A stretch of 64,000 nucleotides of DNA from Niveispirillum lacus (GTDB lineage: Bacteria > Pseudomonadota > Alphaproteobacteria > Azospirillales > Azospirillaceae). Position 1 is the stretch's first letter, and the number at the start of each line of letters is the position of its first letter. Position numbers and translations under genes: made by a program. Under the pieces are notes generated by a model, which saw only the letters and a program-made list of their open reading frames with translations, did no database searches and had not been told where the DNA came from. The DNA is taken from NCBI RefSeq assembly GCF_002251795.1, contig NZ_NOXU01000031.1:558001-622000 (forward strand). Reading direction: 5' to 3'. Positions 7,526 to 27,969 of the stretch are shown in pieces.

Positions 7526-8617
7526 TCAGGGTTCGCCCTTGAAAATGCCGATCACTGGCGGACCGCCCGCCACCTGACGGGCGCGGTACATGCCGGACGT
7601 ATTGAAGGACCAGGCCAACTGACCGTCGGGCGTGACGGCGACAACACCGCCATCACCCCCCAATGCCGTCAGCCGCGTCTGGATCACGTCGTCGGCGGCC
7701 TGCTGCAATGACAGGCCCTTCAGTTCGACCAGATCACAGATGGCGCGGGCCACACCCAGGCGAATGAAATATTCACCGGTACCGGTGGCTGACACGGCAC
7801 AGGATCGGTCATTGGCATAGGTGCCGGCGCCGATGATGGGCACATCGCCCACCCGACCCCACAGCTTGGCTGTGGTGCCGCCGGTCGAGGTGCCAGCCGC
7901 GACATGGCCGGCGCGGTCCAGCGCCACCACCCCAACAGTGCCATATTTGCGATCCTCGAACGGCATGTCGGCGGCGGCGACCGGTGAGGGTTCCGGCCCC
8001 ACACCCGCCGGTCGTGCCGGGATGGGCAGCCCCCGTTCGGTCAAGGTCTTCTTCAGGGACTGCCAGCGCCGTTCGGTAAAGAACCACGCGGCATCGGCCT
8101 GCTCCACCCCTGCCTGCTGCCCAAACTTTTCCGCGCCGGCCCCGATCAGCATCACATGGGGAGATTTCTCCATCACTGCACGGGCCAGGGTGATGGGGTT
8201 TTTGGTTCCCGTGATGCCGGCAACGGCTCCGGCCTTCAACGTGGCGCCCTCCATGATCGCGGCGTCCAGTTCGTTACGGCCATCGGCGGTGAAGACCGCG
8301 CCCTTGCCAGCGTTGAACTGCGGATCATCCTCCAGTCCGGTAACCACGGCGACCACGGCATCAAGCGCGGTTCCGCCCGTGTCCAGCACAGCGCGGCCTC
8401 GGTCCAGCGCGGCCTGGAGGGCGGCACGATAGGCAGCCTCCGTCTCCGGACCCATGGTTTCCCGATCCATTACCCCGGCCCCGCCATGGATGGCCAGTGC
8501 CCAGGCGGGGCGGGCGACCGGTTCTGTCGTTTGTGCGCGCGGTTGGCCAGCGCAGCCCGAAAGACCCAGCGCGGCCAGCAGCAGGGCAAGATGGACAGGG
8601 CGGGCCGGTCGCTTCAT
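7526..8617 (-). CDS. iaaA: Isoaspartyl peptidase / L-asparaginase (Ntn hydrolase), lipoprotein
   Basis: A 363-residue plant-type asparaginase precursor. It cleaves isoaspartyl dipeptides and asparagine after autoproteolysis into two subunits. Visible are LAIHGGAGV near the start, the autocleavage and nucleophile site KYGTVGVVALD (threonine at about residue 230), the substrate-binding GTSTGGTTAKLWGRVGDVPIIGAG block and GTGEYFIR. The N-terminus MKRPARPVHLALLLAALGLSGC ends in a lipobox (LSGC), so the enzyme is likely membrane-anchored and periplasmic. ATG 8617 is chosen with AAGGAG upstream; a TTG 18 bases earlier is less likely. xthA follows upstream on the same strand after 40 bases. Confidence 0.93.
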   Translation of the reverse strand: MKRPARPVHLALLLAALGLSGCAGQPRAQTTEPVARPAWALAIHGGAGVMDRETMGPETEAAYRAALQAALDRGRAVLDTGGTALDAVVAVVTGLEDDPQFNAGKGAVFTADGRNELDAAIMEGATLKAGAVAGITGTKNPITLARAVMEKSPHVMLIGAGAEKFGQQAGVEQADAAWFFTERRWQSLKKTLTERGLPIPARPAGVGPEPSPVAAADMPFEDRKYGTVGVVALDRAGHVAAGTSTGGTTAKLWGRVGDVPIIGAGTYANDRSCAVSATGTGEYFIRLGVARAICDLVELKGLSLQQAADDVIQTRLTALGGDGGVVAVTPDGQLAWSFNTSGMYRARQVAGGPPVIGIFKGEP

Positions 8618-8657
8618 GGCGGGCTTCTCCTTCAAGCGGAACAGTCGGGTTGGGCGA

Positions 8658-9431
8658 TCATTGGCCCAGCGTCAGGATGACCGGTGTATGGTCGGAGGCT
8701 TTTTCCTTGCCCCGCGGCCCCTTGTCGATCTCGCACGCCACAAGCCGGTCGGCGGCTTGCGGGGACAACAGGAAATGGTCGATGCGCAGGCCATTGTTTC
8801 GGGGCCAGGCACCGGCCTGATAGTCCCAGAAGCTGTAGGCGGGAATGAGGCCCGGATGCAGGGTGCGAAATGCCTCCGTGTAACCCAGCGCCAGGATCTC
8901 CTGGAACTTCAGTCGTGTTTCCTGCCGGAACAAGGCGTCGTCGCGCCAGCCGACGGGATCGTAAACATCCTCAGGCCCCGGAATGACATTGTAATCACCG
9001 CCCAGGACGACCGGCTGGCCGCCCCCCAACAAGTCCGCCGCGTGCTGACGCAGCCGATCCATCCAGCGCAGCTTGTAAGGGTATTTCTCGGTGTCCACCG
9101 GATTGCCATTGGGCAGATAAAGGCTGGCGATCCGCACGCCATTCACCGTGCCTTCAACATAACGGGCCTGCTCATCCTCCGGCTCGCCCGGCAAGCGCGT
9201 GATCAGGTCACTGACCGGCATTTTCGACAGGATGGCGACACCGTTATAGGCCTTTTGGCCCACGGCATGGACCTGGTAGCCCAGTTCTTCAAACGCTGCT
9301 GCCGGAAAGGCGGCCGTTTCACACTTGATCTCCTGGAACAGCACCACGTCGGGTGCGGCCTCAATCAGCCATTGCGTGGTGTTAGGCAGGCGGGCCTTGG
9401 CGGAATTCACGTTCCAGGTGGCGATCTTCAC
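8658..9431 (-). CDS. xthA: Exodeoxyribonuclease III (AP endonuclease)
   Basis: A 257-residue Mg2+-dependent endonuclease/exonuclease/phosphatase-fold enzyme that incises abasic sites in base-excision repair. Family motifs in order are KIATWNVNS at the N-terminus, FQEIK with the metal-binding glutamate, YNGVAILSK, GGDYNVIPGPEDV, YSFWDYQ, LRIDHFLLS and SDHTPVILTL with the catalytic histidine. The start codon is GTG at 9431. The gene is followed by the iaaA-like gene and preceded by erpA on the same strand. Confidence 0.95.
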   Translation of the reverse strand: MKIATWNVNSAKARLPNTTQWLIEAAPDVVLFQEIKCETAAFPAAAFEELGYQVHAVGQKAYNGVAILSKMPVSDLITRLPGEPEDEQARYVEGTVNGVRIASLYLPNGNPVDTEKYPYKLRWMDRLRQHAADLLGGGQPVVLGGDYNVIPGPEDVYDPVGWRDDALFRQETRLKFQEILALGYTEAFRTLHPGLIPAYSFWDYQAGAWPRNNGLRIDHFLLSPQAADRLVACEIDKGPRGKEKASDHTPVILTLGQ

Positions 9432-21290: not shown

Positions 21291-21728
21291 GACGTGTCCT
21301 TGGACGGGCGCGTGACAGGGTGGATGGCGCTGGCCGCCGGCTCTGTCGCTTCACCGCCGACACTAAGCCTTTGCCCTATGGGCCGCCACCCAACCGGACG
21401 GTTAGGCCCATACCGGTCATGTGGGTGCCCACCATGGTTCACCTGCCCGGTCGATATAGCGTATCCGCCCTGTTTTTCCAATGGTCGCACAGGGATGCAC
21501 CGGAAGGTCTATGCCGGTTGGTTCCACCGAAAGAGACTGGGGGGTAGCCTGGTGCTGCCACAATAATGACAATGTCATGGGAAAATCTGTTTAAATCAAT
21601 GCCCAAAACGGCGCATTGAGCGGTAAATATTGGCCTGTAATGCATGATTTTTTAATCGAATATCGGTCTAAACGCGATCATTTATCGGTAAATTCTCTCG
21701 AGATACCCCGCTGATGAAAGGAGTTGAT
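21291..21728. other. Intergenic region between glycosyltransferase and sigma-factor genes
   Basis: About 440 bases separating divergent genes. The left half is GC-rich and contains nested inverted repeats (21377-21412 and 21421-21432). The right half (about 21560-21710) turns clearly AT-rich for this genome and holds the perfect 13-base palindrome ATGACAATGTCAT at 21566-21578 and two copies of CGGTAAAT. It must hold promoters for both flanking genes. I see no believable protein gene; a small RNA is possible. Confidence 0.5.
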
Positions 21729-22262
21729 ATGGATACCAACCGGAAAAACGCCAATCAATCTTCCGTCAGTGCAGAGCTTGCGCGGCTGGTTGCTGATGAG
21801 CGCGCCTATCTGCGCCGCTATGCGCTGGGGTTGTGTCACGACATCAGTTTGGCGGATGATCTGGCCCAGGAATGCATGGAGCGCGCCCTGACCCGGCTGC
21901 ATCTATGGCAGAATGGCACGAACCTGCGGGCCTGGCTGTCCACCATGCTGCGAAACCTGCATATCAACGGCCTGCGCCGGCATCGCCATCATGTGAGGCT
22001 GGATGATTGTGACGGCGCCGATCTCGGGTCGGTGCCGGCCCGTCAGATCGGCCGAATGCAGATGCGTGATCTGCGCCGTGCCCTGTCCCGGTTGCCATCC
22101 GACCAGCGGGAGATGGTGGTAATGGTGGCGTTGCGCGGTGCCAGTTATGAACAGGCGGCGCGCAACGCCAAAATTTCGGTAGGCACGGTCAAATCCCGCC
22201 TCTCAAGGGCACGTGACACGTTGCGCCGCCTGATGGAGGGAGAGATGGAAGCCCGCGCCTGA
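21729..22262 (+). CDS. ECF sigma factor, EcfG-like
   Basis: A 177-residue extracytoplasmic-function sigma factor. Region 2 is visible as YALGLCHDISLADDLAQECMERAL then NLRAWLSTMLRNLHING; region 4 as LSRLPSDQREMVVMVALRG, ASYEQAARNAKISVGTVKSRLSRAR. These features fit the EcfG/general-stress group of alphaproteobacteria. However, the partner genes nepR and phyR are not adjacent. ATG 21729 is selected over ATG 21714 because AAAGGAG lies exactly before it and is spanned by the earlier frame. A small MucR-like gene converges, 6 bases away. Confidence 0.9.
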   Translation: MDTNRKNANQSSVSAELARLVADERAYLRRYALGLCHDISLADDLAQECMERALTRLHLWQNGTNLRAWLSTMLRNLHINGLRRHRHHVRLDDCDGADLGSVPARQIGRMQMRDLRRALSRLPSDQREMVVMVALRGASYEQAARNAKISVGTVKSRLSRARDTLRRLMEGEMEARA

Positions 22263-22268
22263 TGCCGA

Positions 22269-22472
22269 TCAGGACAAACGCGGGCGTCCGCGCCGCCGCT
22301 TCTTCACCGCGGCAGGCGCCGCGGGTGGCTGGTTGATGCAGCGATGGAGGCCCTGATAGGCTTGCTGGATCAGAACCGTCAGTTGTTCAGGCGCGACCGG
22401 GTTGCCCTGCGCGTAAGACTTTGCAATTTTCACGGCCAGCAAACGCAGGTGCTCGGTCGAAATATCTGTCAT
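22269..22472 (-). CDS. Small MucR/Ros-like N-terminal domain protein with AT-hook-like tail
   Basis: A 67-residue protein. Residues 1-45 (TEHLRLLAVKIAKSYAQGNP, then PEQLTVLIQQAYQGLHR) resemble the N-terminal oligomerisation domain of MucR/Ros regulators. The C2H2 zinc finger that follows in MucR is absent; instead there is an Ala/Pro linker and a basic tail VKKRRRGRPRLS holding an AT-hook-like RGRP core. ATG 22472 follows GGGGGGAAC. A longer frame to 22541 lacks support. The gene ends just before the convergent sigma gene, so it is not simply a MucR gene cut by frameshift. A nucleoid-binding or MucR-modulating role is an inference. Confidence 0.7.
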   Translation of the reverse strand: MTDISTEHLRLLAVKIAKSYAQGNPVAPEQLTVLIQQAYQGLHRCINQPPAAPAAVKKRRRGRPRLS

Positions 22473-22620: not shown

Positions 22621-24417
22621 TCAGAACTGGTCGTCCGACAGCCCCATCACCGCCCGATGGCCATTGGTCACGATCAGCAGCAGCCCGCGGGCCTGCGGCA
22701 GGATCTGATCCGCATAGAACCGACCGGTGATAATCTTGCCATCCAGGAAACGGGCATCCGCGCCGGGTTCCCGCAATTGGCTATTGGCAGCCATCATCGC
22801 CTTGGCCGTCAGATAACCGCCGATGGTCACGCCGAACATCCGCAGATAGTTGACGGCACCCGACGCAACGGCCGTCAGGTCGGCCTTGCCCGTGTCCAGA
22901 ACCCATTTTGTGGCCGTTTCGACCGCGTCAATGGCGTCGGCAAGGTTGGCGCCCATGGTGGCCATGTCGTCACCCGGTTGAGAGCCAATAGCGGCTGCCA
23001 CCGACCGCATTTCGGCGATCAGGGCGCTGGCGGCCTGTCCGCCGTCCCGAAGGACCTTGCGGAACACAAGGTCATTGGCCTGGATGCCGTTGGTCCCTTC
23101 ATAGATGGGGGCGATGCGGGCGTCCCGGTAATGCTGGGCGGCCCCGGTCTCCTCAATGAAGCCCATACCGCCGTGTATCTGCACCCCCAGACTGGTCAGT
23201 TCCACGCCCAGATCGGTACACCAGGCCTTGGTGATCGGGGTCAGCAGGTCATTCAAGGCGTTGGCGGCCTTCGCGGCTTCTGCATCTGGGTTGCGATGGG
23301 CGTCATCCAGGGCCGAGGCCGTGAAATAAACCAGGGCGCGGGCCGCTTCGATCTGTGACTTCATGGTCATCAGCATGCGGCGCACATCCGGATGCTTGAT
23401 GATGGCCACCGGGTTCGGGTCCTTGCCGGTCAGGGCGCGGCTTTGCACGCGGCCCTTGGCATATTCCACCGCCTGCTGATAGGCGCGTTCGGCAATTGCC
23501 ATGCCCTGAAGCCCAACGCCCAGACGGGCATTGTTCATCATGGTGAACATGTACTCGATGCCCCGATTTTCCTCGCCCACCATAAAGCCGACGGCACCGC
23601 CATTATCGCCATAGGCCATGACAGCGGTCGGGCTGGCATGGATGCCCATCTTATGCTCCAGGCCGGCGCAGCGCAGATCATTGCGCGCCCCCAGGCTGCC
23701 ATCATCATTCACCATGAATTTCGGCACGACAAACAGGCTGATGCCCTTCACGCCAGCCGGGGCCGTCGGCGTGCGGGCCAGTACCAGGTGGATGATATTG
23801 TCGGTAAAATCATGTTCACCATAGGTGATTAAGATCTTCTGCCCGGTAATCAGCCAGGTGCCATCCTCGTTCGGTACGGCCTTGGTACGGACGGCCCCCA
23901 CATCGGAGCCCGCACCCGGCTCTGTCAGGTTCATGGTGCCGGTCCATTCACCGCTGATCAGTTTTTCCAGATACAGCCGCTTCTGCTGTTCTGACCCGTG
24001 GGCCTGCAGCAGTTCCACGGCACCCTGGTTCAACATCGGGCACAACGAAAAGGACATGTTGGCCGAGGTCCACATTTCCTGGATCGGCAGGGCCAGCGTC
24101 CAGGGCAAGCCTTGACCGCCAAAATCCGGATCGAACGGTACCGCGTTCCAGCCACCCTCGGCATATTTCCAATAAGCGTCGCGAAAGCCGGGTGCGGTGG
24201 TGACCACGCCATTTTCCAGCTTGGCCCCGTTCTGATCACCCACCCAGTTCAGTGGCGCCAGCACATCGCGCGCCAGCTTGCCGGCTTCGTCCAGGACCTG
24301 ATCCACCAGATCGGGCGTCACGGCATCATATCCTGGCAGCCCTGCCACCTGGGGCAGGCCGACCACATGGTTCAGCGTGAAACGCATATCCTGGATGGGT
24401 GCATTATAAGCGGTCAT
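22621..24417 (-). CDS. Acyl-CoA dehydrogenase (DmdC/long AidB-like type)
   Basis: A 598-residue FAD-dependent dehydrogenase of the long subclass with an extra C-terminal domain. Motifs are GTMNLTEPGAGSDVGAVRTKA and ITGQKILITYGEHD in the middle domain, ARLGVGLQGMAIAERAYQQA, QIHGGMGFIEETGAAQHYRD and the catalytic-base segment APIYEGTNGIQANDL. Closest named types are methylmercaptopropionyl-CoA dehydrogenase (DmdC) and medium/long-chain enzymes; the exact acyl-CoA is unknown. GGAGGA lies at proper distance from the ATG. A perfect palindrome 139 bases upstream may be its operator. Confidence 0.92.
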   Translation of the reverse strand: MTAYNAPIQDMRFTLNHVVGLPQVAGLPGYDAVTPDLVDQVLDEAGKLARDVLAPLNWVGDQNGAKLENGVVTTAPGFRDAYWKYAEGGWNAVPFDPDFGGQGLPWTLALPIQEMWTSANMSFSLCPMLNQGAVELLQAHGSEQQKRLYLEKLISGEWTGTMNLTEPGAGSDVGAVRTKAVPNEDGTWLITGQKILITYGEHDFTDNIIHLVLARTPTAPAGVKGISLFVVPKFMVNDDGSLGARNDLRCAGLEHKMGIHASPTAVMAYGDNGGAVGFMVGEENRGIEYMFTMMNNARLGVGLQGMAIAERAYQQAVEYAKGRVQSRALTGKDPNPVAIIKHPDVRRMLMTMKSQIEAARALVYFTASALDDAHRNPDAEAAKAANALNDLLTPITKAWCTDLGVELTSLGVQIHGGMGFIEETGAAQHYRDARIAPIYEGTNGIQANDLVFRKVLRDGGQAASALIAEMRSVAAAIGSQPGDDMATMGANLADAIDAVETATKWVLDTGKADLTAVASGAVNYLRMFGVTIGGYLTAKAMMAANSQLREPGADARFLDGKIITGRFYADQILPQARGLLLIVTNGHRAVMGLSDDQF

Positions 24418-25814: not shown

Positions 25815-26189
25815 TTAAAAATCCTCGTCGTAGAGCAGGTGCCTTTTGAGCTGGGCCCTGTAGGACCCGATACGGGTCCCGTCATGGCCTGGCCAGCCGG
25901 CCCGCAGGGCAGACATTTCTGCTTCCCGTTCGTTCAGGGCCCAGCAGGACAGCTCCGTCTCGCGCCCGGCATTGTTGCGCCAGCGGAATATGAACAGCTT
26001 GGGCGACGGGGATGACATGGCTCGGGGCATCCGTTCCGATATGATCCGGCGGAGCAGCATGCGGTGCGTCTGGGGGTGCTGTCCACCCCATCCATTGATG
26101 GTGGTGTTGCGGCACATGCGCCACAAGACTTTGGGGGTGCCGCCGGGGTAGGATGCCCGATCTCTTGGCCTTACCGGTTCGTCTGCCAT
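25815..26189 (-). CDS. Hypothetical protein
   Basis: A 124-residue basic, Arg- and Trp-rich protein of no family I recognise. Third codon positions are G/C-biased as in neighbouring genes, and AAAAGG precedes the ATG at 7 bases. The later part (FIFRWRNNAGRETELSCWAL to HLLYDEDF) looks like a compact folded domain. A start at the internal MCRNTT is an alternative. The ATG overlaps, base for base on the opposite strand, the ATG of the divergent repeat-protein gene, so the true start of one of the two may be further inside. Confidence 0.5.
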   Translation of the reverse strand: MADEPVRPRDRASYPGGTPKVLWRMCRNTTINGWGGQHPQTHRMLLRRIISERMPRAMSSPSPKLFIFRWRNNAGRETELSCWALNEREAEMSALRAGWPGHDGTRIGSYRAQLKRHLLYDEDF

Positions 26190-27969
26190 GTTGCGCCTTT
26201 TGCTGACGCCGCTTCGCTGGTTTTTCCGTTTCCTGCTATATGCGGGTGTCATCCTGACATTGCTGGTGCTGGTGGCGCCCTTCGCCTTTGATATCCAGGG
26301 CCGGGCGGCGGCGGCCCTGGCCGCCATAAATGACGGGGGCCTGGCCGGGATCCGGGTGCAGGCTTTGCCGGAGTCGGTCAGCGGCTTTCCGCCGGAGTTG
26401 GAAATCCGTGACCTGCGGGTGCAGGTGACCGGCGGACCCAGACCAGCGACCGCCATGACGGCGGCCAAGGTCCGGGTTGGGGTCAATGTGATGGAAAGTG
26501 TGCTGCGGGGGCGTTTCATCCTGGTGGCCATGGTGGAAAACCCTGTCATCTACGCCAACCAGCCTCTGAATCTGGGGGCGATCGCCACCGCTATCGGCCT
26601 TGCCACCGGGTTGCAGACCCAGATCCAGTTAATCGGGGGCGAGGTCATCAATCCCGGCAGTCGTACCGTTGTGGCCTTGGGTGATGACACCCTGACCAAT
26701 ATCAATTCCCGATCCAGCGATGATCAGCAGGTGGCTGAAGTGGTCGCCCAGGATGATCGCGGGGCGTCAACCCTGGGGGGCGGTGGCGGTGGTGGTGCCG
26801 GTGCCACCGGCGCAACGGCAACCGCAGCAGGGGTCGGTGCCGGCGTTGTGCCTGGCGTTGTTGCCGGGGTCGCGGCTGGCGTCGGTGGCGTTGTCGCCGG
26901 CGGCGCCGGCGGCAGCGGCGGCAGGGGGCCGGGCGGCGGCACCGGCCCTGGCGGTGGCGGGACGGATCCGGGTGGCGGCGGCACCAACCCTGGTGGTGGT
27001 GGCACAAACCCCGGCGGTGGTGGAACTGATCCAGGCGGTGGCGGGACCAACCCCGGTGGTGGGGGGACCAATCCAGGCGGTGGTGGGACGACGCCAGGGG
27101 GCGGCGGCACCAACCCCGGTGGTGGGGGGACCAATCCGGGCGGTGGCGGGACGACACCTGGGGGAGGTGGGACCAACCCCGGTGGTGGTGGGACGACACC
27201 TGGGGGAGGTGGGATCAACCCCGGTGGTGGCGGGACGACGCCAGGCGGCGGCGGTGTCCTTGATCCCGGTGGCGGTATCATTCCCGGCGGTGGCGGCACA
27301 ATACCTGGCGGTGGCGGCACCACCCCCGGTGGTGGTGGGACGAACCCTGGTGGCGGTACCAACCCCGGCGGTGGGGGGACCAATCCGGGCGGCGGTGGGA
27401 CGACGCCAGGGGGCGGCGGCACCAACCCCGGTGGTGGTAGCACCAACCCTGGCGGCGGCACCAGCGACCCCGGTGGCGGCGGCACCAACCCTGGCGGTGG
27501 CGGCACCAGCGACCCCGGTGGCGGCGGCACCAACCCTGGCGGCGGTGGCACCAATCCCGGTGGCGGCGGCACCAATCCCGGTGGCGGTGGCACCAACCCC
27601 GGCGGCGGTGGCACCAATCCCGGCGGCGGTGGCACCAATCCCGGCGGCGGTGGCACCAACCCCGGTGGCGGTGGCACCAACCCCGGCGGCGGTGGCACCA
27701 ACCCCGGCGGTGGTGGCACCAACCCCGGCGGTGGTGGCACCAACCCTGGCGGTGGTGGCACCAACCCTGGCGGCGGTGGCACCAACCCTGGCGGCGGTGG
27801 CACCAATCCCGGCGGCGGTGGCACCAACCCCGGCGGCGGCGGGACCAACCCTGGCGGCGGCGGGACCAACCCTGGCGGCGGCGGGACCAACCCCGGTGGC
27901 GGTGGCACGAACCCTGGCGGTGGTGGCGGGACCAATCCACCTATGTGCACCTGTCCTTGCGGCTTCTGA
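26188..27969 (+). CDS. Membrane-anchored protein with giant GGGGTNP heptapeptide repeat
   Basis: A 593-residue protein in three parts. Residues 1-40 contain one strong membrane segment ([20 protein letters not shown]). Residues about 40-190 form a globular part of unknown family ([45 protein letters not shown]), loosely like AsmA-type beta-rich domains. After a Gly/Ala linker, about 47 near-perfect heptads of type GGGGTNP, with TTP, TDP and INP variants, run almost to the end. The protein closes with [10 protein letters not shown], a Cys-rich tip. Such Gly/Pro repeats would be extended and flexible, so a cell-surface or envelope-spanning stalk is plausible. The start is not backed by a clear ribosome site. 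Confidence 0.7.
26953..27945 (+). repeat. 21-base coding tandem repeat array (about 47 units)
   Basis: About one kilobase of tandem 21-base units encoding GGGGTNP and variants. The distal units (about 27540-27920) are nearly identical, differing mainly at third codon positions GGT/GGC, which indicates recent amplification. Proximal units are more varied, with TTP, TDP, INP and shortened hexads. All indels seen keep the frame. Confidence 0.9.

Follow-up and report, generated by a model that had tools for sequence, protein, structure and literature searches.

We identified a 67-codon gene in the window, a 64,000-nucleotide stretch of the Niveispirillum lacus genome, whose product joins the N-terminal domain (NTD) of the MucR/Ros family to a basic, AT-hook-like tail and carries no zinc finger. 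This small locus recurs across the order (26 of 82 genomes) and is under purifying selection, which indicates a genuine gene and not a remnant. We see about an even chance that it encodes a finger-less MucR derivative whose tail binds the minor groove of AT-rich DNA and which modulates, or works beside, the two full MucR proteins of the same genome.

RESULTS

A MucR-type N terminus without a zinc finger

The encoded protein, translated from 22472 to 22269 on the minus strand, has the sequence MTDISTEHLRLLAVKIAKSYAQGNPVAPEQLTVLIQQAYQGLHRCINQPPAAPAAVKKRRRGRPRLS. It begins with a two-helix domain, from which a linker of Pro and Ala leads to the basic C-terminal stretch KKRRRGRPRLS (Table 1). There is no zinc-finger half, nor a zinc-less equivalent of it, within the 67 residues, and the frame stops 6 bases from a convergent sigma factor gene. 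The initial annotation had described the protein as a MucR NTD with an AT-hook-like tail in place of the zinc finger, and the translation, the profile comparisons below, and the end of the frame all bear this out. Reading of the individual loci showed that the zinc finger is absent from all 26 members of the group.

Table 1. Features of the small gene, its surroundings, and two related loci. Positions refer to the window, or to the named region where a locus handle is given.
Feature	Positions	Strand	Basis
AT-rich sequence upstream of the sigma gene (GC 0.40)	21550..21749	.	GC count
ECF sigma factor gene, convergent (tail to tail), 6 bases from the small gene's stop	21714..22262	+	Pfam
Small gene, MucR-type NTD and basic AT-hook-like tail, without zinc finger, 67 codons	22269..22472	minus	translation of frame
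Basic AT-hook-like tail KKRRRGRPRLS, residues 57-67	22272..22304	minus	sequence; orthologue tails compared
Pro/Ala-rich linker, residues 48-56	22305..22331	minus	sequence; lower AlphaFold2 confidence
MucR-like NTD, residues 6-47, predicted helices 6-23 and 28-47	22332..22457	minus	AlphaFold2 on alignment A1; hhalign to MucR
Codon C45, invariant Cys closing helix 2	22338..22340	minus	alignment counts
Codon A38, opposite T39 of S. meliloti MucR3 and Val/Ile of ordinary MucR	22359..22361	minus	alignment
Codons L31 to I35 (L31, L34, and I35 are counterparts of Brucella MucR L36, L39, and I40)	22368..22382	minus	alignment counts
Element near GACnAAGGnCATAGGnCnA, 87-107 bases upstream of the start codon	22559..22579	minus	conserved by eye in close relatives
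Acyl-CoA dehydrogenase gene, upstream on the same strand, its end 148 bases from the small gene's start	22621..24417	minus	Pfam
Azospirillum-type MucR paralogue with basic ARRGRAKNVA arm, among the full MucRs nearest the short clade	L227 7812..8366		NTD tree
Mrr_N followed by three AT-hook-like repeats and a MucR NTD, with basic end and without zinc finger	L223 1498..2148	minus	Pfam; repeats by eye

The N-terminal domain is homologous to that of MucR

As a single sequence, residues 12 to 54 of the protein align with positions 5 to 47 of the 123-position Pfam profile ROS_MUCR (PF05443) at an E value of 0.0014, and the score of 19.1 bits falls under the cut-off of 25.4; NCBIfam and PHROGs gave no match to the 67-residue protein. 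The case becomes strong once relatives are included. All 21 members of alignment A1, which comprises 21 short proteins including that of the window, match ROS_MUCR when E values up to 10 are allowed (the best being 0.00013), and a profile-profile comparison of A1 with a MucR alignment (hhalign) gave a probability of 94.2 % and an E value of 1.2e-7 over residues 4 to 56. The similarity to MucR that the initial annotation had expected a profile search to reveal is thus present, and by these sequence comparisons the NTD is homologous to the MucR/Ros oligomerization domain. A search of solved structures returned no match to the NTD; MucR itself matched only the Ros DNA-binding domain 2jsp, together with weak chance matches.

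When the A1 profile was run against 385 genomes of the class, it matched mainly MucR. We inspected 128 of the resulting loci, a count that sets apart the known members L054 and L055, and found a MucR zinc finger in 124, the others being one Azospirillales short protein (L056), one fusion (L166), and two partial matches. L056 was the exception among the first 28 loci (zinc finger in 27); among the further 100, 97 had a zinc finger and the others were L166, with a real NTD, and the partial matches L205 and L219, which cover 23 and 29 residues and gave no NTD in a scan limited to stretches of at least 36 residues. Five rows of the class search fall outside this inspection, and two of them are full-length-looking MucR matches of G068.

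The predicted hairpin keeps a hydrophobic trio and changes other positions

AlphaFold2 run on A1 predicts two helices at residues 6 to 23 and 28 to 47 (mean pLDDT, 81.7; 94 to 97 in the blocks of ten from residue 11 to 40) and a tail of low confidence. The predicted hairpin agrees with the published MucR NTD, which has antiparallel helices at residues 3 to 28 and 33 to 55 (PMC11662661). Formation of oligomers by Brucella MucR needs Leu36, Leu39, and Ile40 (PMC6250670), and residues 17 to 47 of S. fredii MucR1 are given in a review as the minimal self-associating fragment. The counterparts of the Brucella trio, L31, L34, and I35, which were matched by hand through their conserved spacing, are hydrophobic in 26/26 short proteins.

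Residue counts in the 26 short proteins and in 137 MucR NTDs set several other positions apart. A13 is invariant (26/26), and the MucR NTDs have Thr there in 105/137; K15 is found in 24/26, against Glu or Asp in 87/137; and A17 is found in 25/26, against Val in 118/137. A38 is kept in 25/26 with Thr in the remaining one, while 128/137 MucR NTDs have Val or Ile. C45 is again invariant (26/26) where MucR has Leu, Val, or Ile in 109/137, and a Cys anywhere in columns 42 to 48 occurs in just 2/137 MucR NTDs. R10 is present in 19/26 short proteins, compared with Leu in 95/137. It is possible that the invariant C45 forms a disulfide or serves as a redox switch.

Several of these positions have been studied in MucR proteins. 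The hairpin of Brucella MucR is packed by Val22 and Val26 (PMC11662661), with which A17 and A21 align. A38 aligns with Thr39 of S. meliloti MucR3 (from a reading of the two MucR genes on plasmid pSymA), the MucR3 numbering being counted from the start codon that fits Leu9 and Thr39. MucR2, which has Thr at the equivalent of A38, is a monomer in which Thr-to-Val restores assembly only together with a trimmed N-terminal extension, and MucR3 was made monomeric by Arg replacing Leu9 (PMC13297338). Whether R10 is comparable to that Leu9-to-Arg change is unsure: the alignment there is uncertain by one residue, and the window's L9/R10 pair with L9/R10 of MucR3, the Leu being kept. Because published NTD positions are changed, canonical MucR-type rings are neither to be assumed nor dismissed for the short protein; on these alignments, A38, A17, and A21 argue against such rings and possibly against joining them.

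The conserved feature of the tail is basic and Gly-Arg rich

The stretch that follows the NTD is basic in 26/26 members (net +4 to +17). RGR or GRP is present in 23 of the 26 tails (RGR in 20, GRP in 13, and RGRP in 10), and 3/26 have neither. In 2,000 shuffles of the tails, which ignore relatedness, the mean number with RGR or GRP was 4.7 and the largest was 12. In a hand-picked set of 13 representatives, which only reduces the effect of kinship, RGR or GRP occurred in 10/13 against a shuffle mean of 2.0 and was reached in 0/5,000 shuffles, and GRP alone, seen in 5/13, was equaled in 19/5,000. A single tail could arise by chance, since 5 of the 495 stop-to-stop frames of at least 67 codons in the window also combine GRP or RGR with at least seven Lys or Arg in their last 20 residues; its recurrence in orthologues is not chance.

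A GRP with basic flanks, which we take to be the core of an AT-hook, is found in RRRGRPRLS of the window protein and in about half of the clade. The longer g13 members (L115 to L118) have extended tails with GRGRPTW, SRGRPTW, or KPGRPPK, and Nitrospirillum-type members have two Gly-Arg patches each. The Pfam AT-hook model gave no match listed for the 21 A1 members, and we regard that scan as blind here because it also left unmatched the L223 protein, which has three AT-hook-like repeats (described below). Conservation of RGRP in close relatives, on which the first reading had laid weight, holds in part. Within the genus the basic Gly-Arg tail is kept (RGR or GRP in 10/11; RGR in 8/11), but RGRP as such is not fixed, as it occurs in only 5/11 and GRP in 7/11. 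By this comparison, what is conserved is a basic Gly-Arg tail, which resembles an AT-hook in roughly half of the group, and not a fixed RGRP.

Distribution, selection, and origin

A profile search of the order, here 82 genomes from 13 genera of a single family, combined with reading of the loci, found the gene in 26/82 genomes and 6/13 genera, so that the architecture that had been proposed for a search in relatives is indeed present there. Carriers make up 11/11 genomes of the window's genus, 7/7 of g11, and 5/5 of g13, plus single genomes of g6, g7, and g12; the relatives include Niveispirillum, Oleisolibacter, Aerophototrophica, Nitrospirillum, and some labeled Azospirillum, with g11 being mostly Nitrospirillum. 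BLAST alone found 21 genomes of the order and one false match, L025, which was dropped because its frame is interrupted and partly masked. A ROS_MUCR match above the cut-off is present in 82/82 genomes of the order, and the window's genome encodes two full MucRs. Reading of the weak rows of the order search covered four Azospirillum-type (g3) ones, L119 to L122, and each holds a full MucR.

For pairs with usable dS, dN/dS ranged from 0.01 to 0.37 in the NTD and from 0.11 to 0.55 in the tail; some pairs were saturated in dS and gave no ratio. Individual ratios are approximate because the counts are small, yet all point the same way. By these ratios, the small gene is under purifying selection.

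In a tree of NTDs (163 rows, with L166 omitted because it duplicates L223), the short NTDs of Azospirillales, 25 of them distinct, formed one clade (100/97) on a long branch. The tree has 51 columns, its bootstrap had not settled, and long branches meet in it, so we limit the claim to one clade. Its nearest neighbor is a MucR paralogue, found in Azospirillum-type genomes, whose C terminus reads ARRGRAKNVA, and L134, a MucR from another family, likewise adjoins the clade on a long branch. The basic tail may have descended from the C-terminal arm of a MucR through loss of the zinc finger. We rejected the idea that the gene arose at its present locus from a full-length MucR, as the closest full MucRs (Azospirillum-type, L119 to L122) lie in other neighborhoods; the regions of L227 to L229 gave no sigma, acyl-CoA dehydrogenase, or DUF1328 match at E 1e-4. 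The MucR of L227 has a neighbor that by eye resembles a beta-glucosidase. Plasmid and phage collections, in which near records may be missed, gave no tblastn match at E 0.01, and an origin from either was rejected on that ground.

The neighborhood and the upstream region

The small gene lies tail to tail with an ECF sigma factor gene, as the initial annotation had it, but the label "EcfG-like" given to that sigma factor is doubtful, because no NepR was found in the genome and a different ORF stands in several relatives where the anti-sigma gene is expected. The sigma factor matches ECF regions 2 and 4 and PhyR_sigma2. NepR (PF18557) gave no match in the genome at E 0.01, with a positive Caulobacter control, and the ORF after the sigma gene has no Pfam match in L039, L046, L048, and L050. 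The proximity to AT-rich DNA that had also been remarked on applies to the sequence upstream of the sigma gene (Table 1) and not to that upstream of the small gene, where GC is 0.50 to 0.53.

An acyl-CoA dehydrogenase gene and a convergent ECF sigma gene occur near the small gene in 13/20 relative regions, while the seven g11 regions (16 kb) have neither. In distant relatives the intervening genes include a YjbH-type gene (Pfam, L039) and a weakly PepSY-like one (L042, below the cut-off), and DUF1328 lies beside the small gene by Pfam in L039 and by tblastn in L044, L046, L048, and L050. L230 (g13) keeps the YjbH neighbor and has no sigma or dehydrogenase match. In L039, the DUF1328 small protein gene and the ORF behind the ECF sigma gene lie at 8389-8550 and 8620-9084. 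In the window, the 6-base gap from the small gene to the sigma gene leaves no room for DUF1328 or an extra ORF, and because further genes separate the pair in more distant relatives, the tail-to-tail contact is probably a compacted form. Elsewhere in the window, a 21-base tandem repeat of about 47 copies (26932-27927) lies in an ORF at 26188..27969 (+) with a long Gly-rich GGGGTNP repeat.

The element upstream of the start codon (Table 1) may be a promoter or operator private to the small gene. The evidence for it is its conservation, not its site count: allowing three mismatches, the window holds 1 site versus 0.5 expected by chance. A shorter form has 1 exact site in the genome, and we rejected the element as a shared regulon signal on that count. 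Scans for sigma-70 promoters and terminators found nothing.

A second finger-less protein

A fusion protein (L223) in one genome of another alphaproteobacterial family also combines a MucR NTD with AT-hook-like motifs and no zinc finger; it differs from the short protein in its reversed order and in an added Mrr_N domain. Mrr_N was matched at an E value of 2.8e-12 and the MucR NTD at 4.7e-7, above the cut-off, and the repeats read KKPGRPPK, RRKPGRPPK, and RRKPGRPK. Its zinc finger was probably lost independently, since its NTD groups with MucR of its own family (99/95) in the NTD tree. In the other genome examined from the same family, the MucR recovered has a zinc finger.

DISCUSSION

The short protein shares its two-helix NTD and the Leu-Leu-Ile trio with Ros/MucR proteins (Brucella MucR, Mesorhizobium Ml5, and Sinorhizobium MucR1), and they too have a C-terminal basic arm, whose minor-groove contact is described as proposed or modeled. 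Unlike them, it has no zinc-finger domain, is changed at A13, K15, A17, A38, and C45, and is about half as long. S. meliloti MucR2 and MucR3 have also lost the ring-important Val/Ile, with Thr where the short protein has Ala (PMC13297338), but they keep the zinc-finger domain. A parallel in architecture is H-NST, a short H-NS relative from enterobacterial islands, which like the short protein keeps the oligomerization domain and has lost the main DNA-binding domain, though some residual DNA binding is reported for it (PMC7074111). H-NST lies on genomic islands, whereas the small gene has no plasmid or phage match and recurs in one neighborhood. The two are not homologous as far as we know. The AT-hook-like motif of Lsr2 reads the minor groove with an Arg-Gly-Arg type of contact, and this motif and that of H-NS sit within a folded domain, in contrast to the predicted flexible tail that bears the motif of the short protein. 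The Q/RGR loop of H-NS likewise reads the minor groove in the Arg-Gly-Arg manner proposed for that tail. The open-access papers searched do not describe any MucR in which an AT-hook-like tail takes the place of the zinc finger, passages of PMC9779718 and PMC8857273 mention none, and open-access papers gave no description of a MucR counterpart of H-NST or Hha.

In the mechanism we favor, the first 47 residues are a MucR/Ros NTD, predicted to fold as a helical hairpin, and a flexible linker bears the basic Gly-Arg tail. The tail would insert into the A/T-rich minor groove as an AT-hook does, or in the manner of the C-terminal basic arm of MucR, and the hairpin would contact itself or the genome's two full MucRs. 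The short protein could in this way tune MucR-type silencing as H-NST-like short relatives tune H-NS. Since a number of NTD positions differ throughout the clade, we would expect the protein not simply to reproduce the MucR ring but to have a specificity unlike that of ordinary MucR rings, perhaps with weak self-assembly. Function as a silencer modulator or as a minimal silencer is plausible from sequence, and we infer that the most likely role is that of a DNA-binding modulator of MucR-type silencing, with an autonomous mini-silencer as the main rival. The neighboring genes (sigma, YjbH, and DUF1328) do not point to a target.

That rival has the protein acting as a minimal nucleoid protein insulated from MucR, in which the remodeled hairpin (Ala-rich interface, Lys15, and Cys45) self-associates and the AT-hook-like tails coat or bridge AT-rich DNA. 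We consider it rather unlikely. The clade-wide residues at positions 13, 15 (mostly acidic in MucR), 17, 38, and 45 would fit such insulation, as would the separate clade of short NTDs on its long branch and the paired Gly-Arg patches of Nitrospirillum-type members, but MucR2 and MucR3 of S. meliloti, which assemble poorly, have Thr at the position equivalent to A38 (PMC13297338).

The protein could instead be a pure antagonist, a finger-less subunit that enters MucR oligomers and breaks their bridging, with a tail that serves charge or solubility only. H-NST provides a natural precedent in the H-NS family (PMC7074111), and the packing trio of the NTD is kept. We nevertheless hold this to be improbable: the tail is selected by its dN/dS and retains Gly-Arg motifs far more often than shuffles do, and charge alone would not need them. 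The NTD changes may also prevent mixing with MucR.

Tails rich in Arg and Gly can bind RNA, and one could suppose that the tail contacts RNA, or a protein such as RNA polymerase or the neighboring sigma factor, and that this is not a chromatin protein at all. The convergence with an ECF sigma gene in 13/20 relative regions would suit such a role, but convergent genes do not form one operon, and seven g11 copies lie in 16-kb regions without that sigma gene. We give this reading a slim chance and favor a DNA-linked role because the MucR ancestry of the NTD and the fusion of such a domain with AT-hook-like repeats in L223 point to DNA. That the locus is a degenerate MucR remnant or a functionless chance frame, as the single-sequence Pfam score below the cut-off and the comparable tails in 5/495 window frames might suggest, is rejected as highly improbable on its conservation in 26 genomes, the purifying selection, the invariant residues, the recurring neighborhood, and the upstream element.

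More broadly, we offer tentatively, as a possibility that we hold at less than even strength, that the NTD of MucR acts as a portable module for assembly, which has been freed from the zinc finger at least twice and joined to AT-hook-type readers. In Azospirillales the outcome would be a further nucleoid protein, smaller than MucR, whose interface is remodeled, which has an invariant, possibly redox-sensing Cys, and which tunes MucR-type silencing. MucR is described as the alphaproteobacterial counterpart of H-NS, and the interplay among MucR proteins is so far unknown according to the 2026 paper on MucR2 and MucR3 (PMC13297338). A natural finger-less relative with its own DNA-reading tail would allow a direct test of which part governs assembly and which governs DNA choice, and if the protein is a modulator, MucR would have its counterpart of H-NST or Hha.
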